Shown here piece by piece: positions 57,295 through 61,127 of a DNA stretch of 64,000 nucleotides. The notes below the pieces were generated by a model. It was given only the letters and a program-made list of their open reading frames with translations, was not told the origin of the DNA and did no database searches. The stretch lies in contig JAJFHQ010000068.1 in the NCBI GenBank assembly GCA_021775525.1, positions 24,208 through 88,207 on the forward strand. Reading direction: 5' to 3'. Source of the DNA: Hyphomicrobiales bacterium (GTDB lineage: Bacteria; Pseudomonadota; Alphaproteobacteria; Rhizobiales; Methyloligellaceae). The translations under genes and the position numbers were made by a program. Position 1 is the first letter of the stretch. Every line of letters begins with the position of its first letter.

Positions 57295-58116
57295 CTACGA
57301 GGCCTCTTCCTCGCCCGCCTTCACCTCGTCCCACAGCGCATCCATCTCTTTGAGGTCTGATTGCTCAGGCGTCTTGCCCCTGGCTTTCAGCAGCTCTTCG
57401 ACGCCTCCAAAGCGCCGGATGAATTTCGCATTGGCCTTGCGCAACACGTCTTCCGGATCAACCTGCAAATGCCGCCCGAGATTGGCGACGACAAACAGCA
57501 GGTCGCCATATTCCTCGGCGATTTTCTCCCGGCTGGGATTTTCCAGCGTCGTTGCATCTTCCAGCTCAGCAATCTCTTCGCGGATCTTGTCCAGCACCGG
57601 CTCCATATCAGGCCAGTCAAACCCGACGCGGGCGGCCTTGTCCTGCAACTTGATGGCGCGCACAAGCGCGGGTAGGGCGAGGGGCACACCGTCCAGCACG
57701 CTTTGCCCTGGTGAAGGCTTGCCTGATTTCTCCTCCGCCTTCGCCCGCTCCCAGAAGCCTTCCGGGTTAAAATTGGCGCGCTCTTCATCGCTGCCAAACA
57801 CATGGGGGTGGCGGCGGATCATTTTTTCTGAGATAGCCTGGACCACATCGTCAAAGGAGAAATGCCCATCCTCGCGCGCCATCTGTGAGTGGTAGACGAC
57901 CTGCAACAGCAGATCGCCAAGCTCTTCCTTCAGGTCGTCGAAATCGGAGCGTTGAATCGCATCGGCAACTTCGTAGGCTTCCTCAATGGTGTAGGGCGCG
58001 ATTGAACCGTAAGTCTGTATCACGTCCCACGGGCAGCCGGTTTCAGGCTCGCGTAGGGCCTCCATGATGCGCAAGAGGTCGGTGATGGATTTCTTTTCGG
58101 GAGGAGAGGGTGACAT
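57295..58116 (-). CDS. mazG: Nucleoside triphosphate pyrophosphohydrolase MazG
   Basis: LREPETGCPWDVIQTYGSIAPYTIEEAYEVADAI, ELGDLLLQVVYHSQMA, EEYGDLLFVVANLGRHL. Confidence 0.95.
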   Translation of the reverse strand: MSPSPPEKKSITDLLRIMEALREPETGCPWDVIQTYGSIAPYTIEEAYEVADAIQRSDFDDLKEELGDLLLQVVYHSQMAREDGHFSFDDVVQAISEKMIRRHPHVFGSDEERANFNPEGFWERAKAEEKSGKPSPGQSVLDGVPLALPALVRAIKLQDKAARVGFDWPDMEPVLDKIREEIAELEDATTLENPSREKIAEEYGDLLFVVANLGRHLQVDPEDVLRKANAKFIRRFGGVEELLKARGKTPEQSDLKEMDALWDEVKAGEEEAS

Positions 58117-58289
58117 ACCCGTCTGTTTAATCGAGTTCCACCTTTACGCAAAGTCTCACGCGCTGGCAGATCAATCCCGATGTGGAGAAGCCTCCAGCAC
58201 CAGCAAATAGATCAACTAAAATGGCCTCAGCCATGCCGCCAGGCACTCATCAGCAACCGCGACCAAGAAGGACACGTAAACGACGCGTC

Positions 58290-58985
58290 TCACCCGCTGG
58301 CAGGATCGCCAGGGGGCCCTTCAAACGCTCCTAAGGGAATAAACGGGTGCTGATCGTAGTGTGCCTCGAAGGTTTGTAACGGGCGCTCATCAGTGTCCGC
58401 GTGCAAACCGGCTAAACCTTGCAGCGGGAGATGTCCGTCGTGCTGATCATAATGTGCCTCGAAGTTTTGTAACTGGCGCCTACCAGTGCCTGCGTTCTCT
58501 GCATACCCGCCTATTTGCCCAAAACCGGCTAAACCTGGCAGCTGGGGATAGTCGTCGTGTTGATCGTAGTGTTCCTCGAAGGATTGTAACGGGCGCTCAG
58601 TGGAGGCTGGCGGCAGGACATCTCCATCGACCAAATAGCCTCCCGTCATGGAGGGTAACTCATTTTCGATGCCATGAAACTGTGGAACAGCTTCTAAGAT
58701 GGGACCCACGTCATTGACGTGAGTATGGTCGATCAATTTGTTGAGGCCCTTCGAGCCCACACGAGACACGAGAACGGAACAACAAATTGAAGGGCAAAAT
58801 ATGAGGAAAAATGAAGCTATGATCTGAATGTACGACATCGTGGGTATCGGGTAGTTCGCGACCAGAAATACAAGAAAAGTGCTAGACAAGACCGCGAACA
58901 ACGCAACCGAAATATTGTTCCACCAACTGGCGCGATACTTCACACGCGCGTTGTGAATCGCATCCCCTGTCTTCTGAGTGTGCAT
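58290..58985 (-). CDS. Two-TM protein (possible SLATT-like) with C-terminal tandem FEAHYDQH repeats
   Basis: KYRASWWNNISVALFAVLSSTFLVFLVANYPIPTMSYIQIIASFFLIFCPSICCSVLVS two hydrophobic helices; three RPLQxFE(E/A)HYDQH units. ATG 58985 has GGAG about 8 nt upstream; the ORF-track GTG at 59000 is the alternative. Confidence 0.6.
   Translation of the reverse strand: MHTQKTGDAIHNARVKYRASWWNNISVALFAVLSSTFLVFLVANYPIPTMSYIQIIASFFLIFCPSICCSVLVSRVGSKGLNKLIDHTHVNDVGPILEAVPQFHGIENELPSMTGGYLVDGDVLPPASTERPLQSFEEHYDQHDDYPQLPGLAGFGQIGGYAENAGTGRRQLQNFEAHYDQHDGHLPLQGLAGLHADTDERPLQTFEAHYDQHPFIPLGAFEGPPGDPASG
58348..58597. repeat. In-frame tandem coding repeat (two full units of 93 and 117 bp plus a partial third)
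   Basis: 'tgctgatcgtagtgtgcctcgaaggtttgtaacgggcgc' recurs at 58348, 58441 and 58558; unit lengths are multiples of 3; protein (R/Q)(P/Q)LQxFE(E/A)HYDQH. Confidence 0.9.
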
Positions 58986-59301
58986 TCTGTACTCCAACAC
59001 TCCAACTTCGAATCAACTGTTGTGCGGATAGGTTCACGTACAATTGTGGCAACTCTTTGCCAGACTTACTGTCTCCTATTTGGCTTCGCATAGTCGCCCG
59101 ATCGGACGCCTTGAGCGCGCGTTTTACGGTGCTCTTCGAGACGCCGTAGCGATCCGCGAGCCTCTGATTGGTGACACCGTTTTTTGCCTCACGCACGATA
59201 TCCCGGTCTCTCTGGCGGCGTGTCCGCTCGCCGGGTGTCTTCATGAAATGACTATAATGAGCTTCGACAAATTCGGGGAAGGTGTCCATCATCTCCGCCA
59301 T
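58882..59301 (-). CDS. HTH-domain protein (resolvase/Hin-like HTH), start uncertain (M1 at 59301 or M4 at 59292)
   Basis: RQRDRDIVREAKNGVTNQRLADRYGVSKSTVKRALKASD helix-turn-helix pattern; C-terminal part overlaps the 2TM gene in another frame. Confidence 0.55.
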   Translation of the reverse strand: MAEMMDTFPEFVEAHYSHFMKTPGERTRRQRDRDIVREAKNGVTNQRLADRYGVSKSTVKRALKASDRATMRSQIGDSKSGKELPQLYVNLSAQQLIRSWSVGVQNAHSEDRGCDSQRACEVSRQLVEQYFGCVVRGLV

Positions 59302-59494: not shown

Positions 59495-59547
59495 GCGTGT
59501 TTAATATCCACGCCTGTAATTCGCATAATGTATATTATGACAAATTA
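59495..59547. promoter_or_regulatory. Nested inverted repeats upstream of the HTH/2TM cassette
   Basis: GCGTG-N9-CACGC (59495-59513), CATAAT-N4-ATTATG (59524-59539), outer TAATT (59517-59521)/AATTA (59543-59547). Confidence 0.45.
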
Positions 59548-59603: not shown

Positions 59604-61127
59604 TTATTTCTCCACCGTCTCGGCGATTAACCTGTTCAGCAGCCGCACGCCAAAGCCGGAGCCCCAGGAGGTGTTAACGTCTGTCTTGGGGGCGGACATG
59701 CCGGTGCCGGCAATGTCGAGATGCGCCCAGGGCGTGTCGTCCTTGATGAAGCGCTGCAGGAATTGCGCGGCGGTGATGGAACCGGCCCAGCGGTCACCGA
59801 TGTTTTTCATGTCCGCAACTTGAGACTTGATCATCTCGTCATACTTGGGGCCGAGGGGCAGGCGCCAGAGTTTCTCGTTGGTCTCCCCTCCTGCCTTCGT
59901 GAGTTTTTCACTCAAGTCATCATTGTTGGAAAACAGTCCCGCATGTTCCTTGCCGAGTGCCACGAGAATGGCGCCCGTTAACGTCGCCAGGTTCACGATC
60001 CATTTGGGCTGGAACTTCTTTTGCGCATAAGTGAGCATATCTGCCAGCACGAGGCGGCCTTCAGCGTCCGTGTTAAGAACCTCAATAGTCTGTCCGTCCA
60101 TGGAGCCGATGACATCGCCGGGGCGATAGGCATTTCCGCTCGGCATGTTTTCAACCAGACCGATCAGACCAACCACGTTGGCTTTGGCCTTGCGCGCCGC
60201 CAGCGCGTGCATCAGGCCGACGACGCAGGCCGCGCCCGCCATGTCGCCCTTCATGTCTCCCATGCCCGCTGATGGTTTGATGGAGATACCGCCGGTATCA
60301 AACGTAACCCCCTTCCCCACGATGGCGACCGGCTTGCCGCCCTTCGCGCCCGCCCCTTGCCATTGCATGATCGCGGCAAAAGAGGGTTTGTCACTGCCCC
60401 GCCCCACGGCCAGCAGCGCTTCCATCTTGTTGGCTTTCAGCGCCTTCTCATCGAGCAGCTGAACCTTGACGCCGAGCTTGGTGAGCGCCTTGGCCTTGGC
60501 TGCAAACTCCTTTGGCCCCAGTATGTTGGCTGGTTCGTTGACCAGGTCACGGGCGAGAATCACCCCCTCGCCCACCGCCTTGCCCGCCACAAATGCGCGT
60601 TTTGCGGCCGCGGCACTGGCGCATTGCACCGTGATCTTGCTCAAATCTGTGTCATTACTGCCACTGTCAGGATCTTTTTTGCCCGCCTTTGTCTTGTACT
60701 TGTCGAACTTGTAGCCCCGCAGCATCGCCCCGAGGGCTACTTGAGCTGCCTGTTCACCACTCACGTCAAAGGGGCTTTTGGCCCGCTCCAGCACCAGAAC
60801 GGTGGGGTTATCCTTGCCTGAGAGCCTCGCCCTGATCTGGCCGCCAAGCTCCAGCCAGTCATTGTCGTTATAGTCTTTCAGCTTTCCCGTACCGACGATG
60901 AGAAGACGCGAAAGACCCAGTTTCTCAGGCACCAAGATGTTCAGGGAGGATTTCTTTTTTCCCTTGAATTTCCGCAGCTTAACGGCTCGTGAAATGGCCC
61001 CGCCGCTGGTTTTGTCGAGCGCTTTCGCGGTTTTGGAAAGCAGCGCGCCTTCCTCGCTTAACAGGATCAAAACGCCGCTCTTTACGGGCGAAATATTGGC
61101 GAAGGAAAAGGCGGTTGGTTTGCTCAT
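59604..61127 (-). CDS. pepA: Leucyl aminopeptidase
   Basis: VAIVGKGVTFDTGGISIKPSAGMGDMKGDMAGAACVVGLMHALA, NTDAEGRLVLADMLTYA. Confidence 0.96.
   Translation of the reverse strand: MSKPTAFSFANISPVKSGVLILLSEEGALLSKTAKALDKTSGGAISRAVKLRKFKGKKKSSLNILVPEKLGLSRLLIVGTGKLKDYNDNDWLELGGQIRARLSGKDNPTVLVLERAKSPFDVSGEQAAQVALGAMLRGYKFDKYKTKAGKKDPDSGSNDTDLSKITVQCASAAAAKRAFVAGKAVGEGVILARDLVNEPANILGPKEFAAKAKALTKLGVKVQLLDEKALKANKMEALLAVGRGSDKPSFAAIMQWQGAGAKGGKPVAIVGKGVTFDTGGISIKPSAGMGDMKGDMAGAACVVGLMHALAARKAKANVVGLIGLVENMPSGNAYRPGDVIGSMDGQTIEVLNTDAEGRLVLADMLTYAQKKFQPKWIVNLATLTGAILVALGKEHAGLFSNNDDLSEKLTKAGGETNEKLWRLPLGPKYDEMIKSQVADMKNIGDRWAGSITAAQFLQRFIKDDTPWAHLDIAGTGMSAPKTDVNTSWGSGFGVRLLNRLIAETVEK

Follow-up and report, generated by a model that had tools for sequence, protein, structure and literature searches.

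The closest described counterparts of the protein analyzed here are the FtsN-like SPOR proteins. In S. meliloti such a protein, RgsS, is required for division, interacts with the GPR homolog RgsE and with RgsA, and carries a cytoplasmic domain of 600 residues, for which a further role was suggested (PMC7327166). RgsS locates to the septum and the growing pole (PMC7327166; PMC7822825). In E. coli the cytoplasmic tail of FtsN binds FtsA, and the FtsA-binding motif consists of R/KDY and a basic stretch (PMC7613929). A second set of comparable proteins consists of small proteins that act on the divisome, namely lambda Kil (PMC3961180) and SidA and DidA of Caulobacter, which are membrane inhibitors of the FtsW/I/N complex (PMC4211646). 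With regard to genomic setting, prophages of the tailless type have been described close to dif in Vibrio (PMC9966536, PMC11630473).

The gene considered here, encoding P0001 (Table 1), lies in the window, by which we mean the whole stretch of 64,000 nucleotides that was analyzed. The window belongs to an 86%-complete MAG (G000), and the genomes of the same family carry names of Hyphomicrobiales MAGs. The preliminary description of this DNA had recognized an ORF with two TM helices and three C-terminal repeats, and this holds: the frame is intact, and an AlphaFold model (12-sequence alignment) gave a confident two-helix hairpin (H4-44 and H52-87, block pLDDT 73–89), followed by a tail that is disordered or of low confidence from about residue 100, with short weak helices at two of the repeat copies. 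The repeats (at 58557, 58440 and 58347) are 56 nt each, show 79–84% identity at the DNA level and share the consensus LQxFE(A/E)HYDQH; the distances between them, 117 and 93 nt, are both divisible by 3, which places all three copies in frame. Positive charges are found at the N-terminus (K5, R14, K16, R18) and again after helix 2 (R, K, K), and the loop between the helices is uncharged. By the positive-inside rule, this distribution suggests that both termini, and hence the tail, are cytoplasmic (N-in/C-in). A GC content lower than that of the surroundings had also been remarked upon, and indeed the gene stands at 0.523 against 0.58 for mazG and pepA, but the difference is mild, other genes of the window ranging from 0.48 to 0.61. 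Sequence searches with the protein recovered no relatives among solved structures, phages or viral contigs, and the Pfam matches to OPT and DDE in the hmmscan run lay far under the cut-off. The single plasmid match was to a P-type ATPase and was judged a chance hit.

The tail is built from two short motifs, which we term A (LPGLAGFGQMQGYA) and B (LQTFEAHYDQHPEIPLGAFEGP). The repeat had been taken to be novel, but its sequence is that of a motif which the FtsN-like SPOR protein carries in its cytoplasmic region. In a search of 60 relatives, the last 28 residues of P0001 matched ORFs of about 500–650 residues in every genome of the same genus, with identities of up to 85–95% and e-values of 3e-8 to 3e-9. 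The matching protein at one of these loci (L004) contains a SPOR domain (PF05036, 1.5e-10), and where the flanks of the gene were read (L009) it is bordered by argS and nagZ. Going by this domain layout and the gene order, rather than by a tree, we take the SPOR protein of the family to be a probable ortholog of RgsS. When nine such SPOR proteins were aligned, their N-terminal regions proved divergent except for two conserved islands, motifs A (in the form GLPGLAGFGQMQGYAP) and B (LQTFEAHYDQHPEIPLGAFEGP). A motif-B profile constructed from FtsN proteins only gave P0001 a score of 72.3 bits, while the best of 20,000 shuffles of the tail reached 12.9; with the corresponding motif-A profile the values were 18.6 and 15.7 bits. 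Of 30 genomes of the family that were searched with the motif-B profile, 26 gave a match at E<=1. Strong matches are found once per genome, in long ORFs, G000 alone having three, all of them in P0001. Wherever the one place per genome could be assigned, motif B sits in the SPOR protein, and this is likewise the case in another genus of the family, in which the motif reads LQAFDAIYDQPPQIPLGSTD. Among these genomes the array itself is seen in G000 alone. With P0001 as the query, no hits were seen outside the family below E=0.01. We regard it as virtually certain that the motifs of the P0001 tail and those of the FtsN-like SPOR protein are the same and of common origin. A look-alike of motif B in the neighboring HTH gene, FVEAHYSHF, was judged to be a coincidence, given that homologs vary at this point (FVESHYGHF, FIEAHYNYF).

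The ftsN gene of G000 itself was not found in the assembly, and because argS and nagZ are missing from it too, the most plausible cause is a gap in the incomplete MAG. The likeness of P0001 to the RgsS/FtsN-like proteins lies in the cytoplasmic motifs A and B, as seen in the family's own SPOR protein. In other respects the two differ: the FtsN-like protein has a SPOR domain, one TM helix and motif B once, whereas P0001 has no SPOR domain (Pfam hmmscan), two TM helices and motif B repeated, and neither its AlphaFold model nor its charge distribution conforms to the FtsN-type arrangement of a single TM helix with a periplasmic C-terminus. P0001 is best read as a chimeric inner-membrane protein, in which a two-helix anchor is joined to a disordered cytoplasmic tail with FtsN motifs in the order B-A-B-A'-B.

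Table 1. Features of the P0001 locus (positions in the window)
Feature	Positions	Strand	Basis or remark
mazG, flank of the variable interval	57295..58116	-	locus comparison
3' end of P0001, in DNA that is also present upstream of mazG in G006 and, on visual inspection, in G003; may mark a fusion junction	58289..58345	-	
P0001, 231-aa two-TM protein with FtsN-motif tail	58290..58985	-	ATG, intact ORF; GGAG 6 nt before ATG
Motif B copy 3, full length, LQTFEAHYDQHPFIPLGAFEGP	58314..58379	-	matches to relatives, FtsN-only profile
Partial motif A', QGLAGL region	58406..58426	-	repeat comparison; with the FtsN-only profiles, GLAG is no more than a sub-threshold second match
Motif B copy 2, LQNFEAHYDQH	58440..58472	-	repeat analysis, FtsN-only profile
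Motif A, LPGLAGFGQIGGYA	58500..58541	-	FtsN alignment, FtsN-only profile
Motif B copy 1, LQSFEEHYDQH	58557..58589	-	repeat analysis, FtsN-only profile
N-terminal helical hairpin, residues ~6-86	58728..58970	-	AlphaFold and family profile
P0002, HTH ORF	58882..59301	-	3' portion of a longer HTH gene that is complete in G001 and G006 and carries a frameshift in G000
Chromosomal dif site (as read), TTCGCATAATGTATATTATGACAAAT	59522..59547	+	pattern count across genomes
pepA, other flank	59604..61127	-	locus comparison

We propose that P0001 may be a multivalent mimic of the cytoplasmic motifs of FtsN that competes for the cytoplasmic partner of FtsN, a reading to which we assign a probability of roughly 55%. 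It is grounded in the identity and distribution of the motifs, the variable interval close to dif and the predicted hairpin with its disordered tail, and from these we infer the cytoplasmic topology, binding, partner, localization and effect on division. On the predicted topology, the tail side would be the cytoplasm, the same side on which FtsN exposes its motifs (topology of RgsS: PMC7327166). Motif B, and also A, would dock on the cytoplasmic partner used by FtsN/RgsS, for which the candidates are FtsA or a growth-pole scaffold of the GPR/RgsE type. The FtsA-binding motif of E. coli FtsN is dissimilar to motif B, and this counts against the proposal. So do the occurrence of the chimera in a single MAG, whose own FtsN is not seen, and the decayed look of the HTH gene next to it. 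The extra motif copies would confer avidity, and P0001 would be drawn to the division site or the new pole, would compete with FtsN through its copy number and, when expressed, would act as a modulator or inhibitor of division. We hold it slightly more likely than not that P0001 binds the same partner as FtsN, while a net effect that is competitive or inhibitory, as opposed to mere localization, is put forward tentatively and is open to considerable doubt. In targeting the divisome as a small protein, P0001 would resemble SidA, DidA and Kil, but these have no known sequence relation to P0001 and do not mimic cytoplasmic motifs of FtsN, and the effect of P0001 is a proposal.

The sequence TTCGCATAATGTATATTATGACAAAT, 0.54 kb from the P0001 gene, has one match in the window and is a single-copy sequence in 33 of 41 related genomes, a control with the reversed pattern giving 0. 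Given its resemblance to the dif site of E. coli, we interpret it as the chromosomal dif site. The placement of P0001 between mazG and pepA given earlier is correct, but the HTH ORF also lies between P0001 and pepA, and dif is the more telling neighbor. Comparison across relatives showed the pepA–mazG interval to be variable, the two genes being just ~140 bp apart in four genomes (G002, G004, G005, G007) and separated by other cargo elsewhere. In G006 the interval holds an HTH gene together with a gene for a DUF6602 protein (PF20247, 1.3e-16; L079 2460-3240, G006:C16), and in G001 an HTH gene and about 10 kb with a PM2-type capsid (P2_N 1.6e-16, P2_C), Rep_1 and a packaging-ATPase-like ORF. 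The interval is a cargo site, and the dif-adjacent position of P0001 suggests a mobile origin. We noted that the G001 element has the appearance of a PM2/corticovirus-like prophage beside dif (L084 2400-12700, G001:C211), with a half dif at the mazG end; a search of G000 for a further dif, complete or half, gave none. The HTH gene beside P0001 extends upstream to about 59470, and in G000 it is frameshifted and its similarity is lost before its end, where P0001 follows; it looks decayed. At the opposite end, the terminal segment of the P0001 gene shares ~81% identity with the DNA that precedes mazG in G006, and the codons that follow GAFEGP seem to be a translation running into such DNA, suggesting that the fusion formed at this locus. 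A short stretch of mazG-upstream DNA is common to G006, G003 and the P0001 end (L079 3390-3500; L082 2690-2806), and could be the stub of a gene on the opposite strand (LTRWQDRQRALQTDEGYDAVASRLGKK).

The age of the tail was assessed over the 22 codons of copy 3, which gave pS values of 0.70–1.24 and pN values of 0.05–0.24 against nine FtsN genes; that is, copy 3 is saturated at synonymous sites relative to every sampled FtsN, with the protein nearly identical. Relative to ftsN of G006, the closest genome to G000 (mazG 90%), 13 of 21 codons identical in amino acid differ, as against 61 of 247 in mazG and 92 of 431 in pepA for the same pair of genomes. This greater synonymous change argues against a recent copying of the tail from the resident ftsN, on the assumption that the latter diverged like mazG and pepA. 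The tail would then either have evolved separately for longer than the G000–G006 split or have come from an unsampled relative. The three repeats differ little from one another, with a mix of 1–3 synonymous and 2–4 non-synonymous changes per pair.

These data bear on the alternative that survives best, according to which ftsN debris was duplicated and fused behind a 2TM fragment at a dif insertion site of fast turnover, yielding a chimera with no selected role. Its presence in one genome only, the frameshift in the adjoining HTH gene, the entry of the 3' end into DNA common to the mazG-upstream region of G006 and G003, and inter-repeat changes that are not clearly purifying are all in line with this alternative. 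Against it stand an intact frame of 231 codons with the repeats in frame and a good ribosome site, and the preservation of motif B at the protein level (pN 0.05–0.07 against the closest FtsN) despite saturated pS, although it may have been the donor FtsN, and not P0001, in which selection conserved the motif. We consider such a non-functional origin unlikely, if still a serious contender.

The N-terminal part bears on a further alternative. Residues 1–113 of P0001 had no strong relative among 398 genomes of the order, and a weak match (L106/L110, KFRASWLNGLSVATFAVG) led to an unnamed family of two-TM proteins of about 75 residues with the consensus NExIKLxAxxLNGLAIAxFAVGGLAP...LHxxARRxLxGL (loci L110-L129). 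This family appears to be widespread in the order Hyphomicrobiales. Against a family profile built without it P0001 scored 21.4 bits, compared with a maximum of 16.3 among 20,000 segment-preserving shuffles, and the assignment is partly circular, as the members were recruited using a profile that included P0001. Residues 10–39 alone align, spanning the N-terminal motif and the first helix, and the second-helix residues of the family (G, H, ARR; LHxxARR) are not kept in P0001. The KxxAxxxN motif, the first TM helix and the hairpin are shared, but the small proteins are tailless. We therefore have moderate confidence that the N-terminus is weakly related to this family, judging from the sequence comparison. 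No curated Pfam match was obtained for the members tested, the family to which G000 belongs yielded no standalone member, and no constant partner gene was seen among ten loci. Derivation of the N-terminus from the 2TM region of GPR/RgsE was rejected, the weakly matching ORFs of >1000 residues resembling, by sequence, an RND-type transporter (two) and a DNA polymerase III alpha-like protein (one), with no link to GPR. Given that the family members stand alone, the tail looks like an add-on, and it might be no more than a tag that directs the 2TM protein to the septum or to the new pole, with the 2TM part acting there and competition with FtsN absent; RgsS marks the septum and the growing pole in S. 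meliloti (PMC7327166, PMC7822825). A tag of this kind needs fewer than three motif copies, and the 2TM family is without known function; we hold this possibility to be quite improbable.

The preliminary description had likened P0001 to the SLATT-type pore-forming defense effectors, a comparison favored by the short polar N-terminus with two TM helices behind it and by the variable interval; but a two-TM hairpin is non-specific, hmmscan against Pfam, with filters on, detected no SLATT family either with the whole protein (E<=10) or with the N-terminus (E<=1), a SLATT_4 profile run over the whole genome had no match at the P0001 locus, PADLOC returned none, and the neighbors are mazG, the HTH ORF and pepA with no SMODS/SLOG partner gene, which makes this identity very improbable indeed. 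The same can be said of a self-contained His/Asp repeat for metal binding or oligomerization, which the three HYDQH clusters might bring to mind: the same residues are present once in FtsN, where there is no array, and metal binding is unnecessary as an explanation. The suggestion that two TM helices with a repeat tail could recruit a partner is, on the other hand, borne out as a reading, the tail consisting of FtsN motifs.

Returning to P0001 as a mimic of FtsN, a speculative and rather unlikely extension is that a dif-inserted mobile element evolved a multicopy FtsN-docking mimic that seizes the divisome or the growth-pole scaffold, which would reveal an undescribed cytoplasmic interaction of FtsN in Hyphomicrobiales. 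Our analysis draws attention to a pair of short motifs that are conserved within the extensive cytoplasmic part of the FtsN-like proteins of these polar-growing bacteria. If the proposal is true, it would represent linear-motif mimicry of the cytoplasmic side of FtsN by a dif-associated gene, and this natural multivalent copy of the motifs could be used as it stands to capture the missing partner and might be a naturally occurring dominant-negative factor in division.
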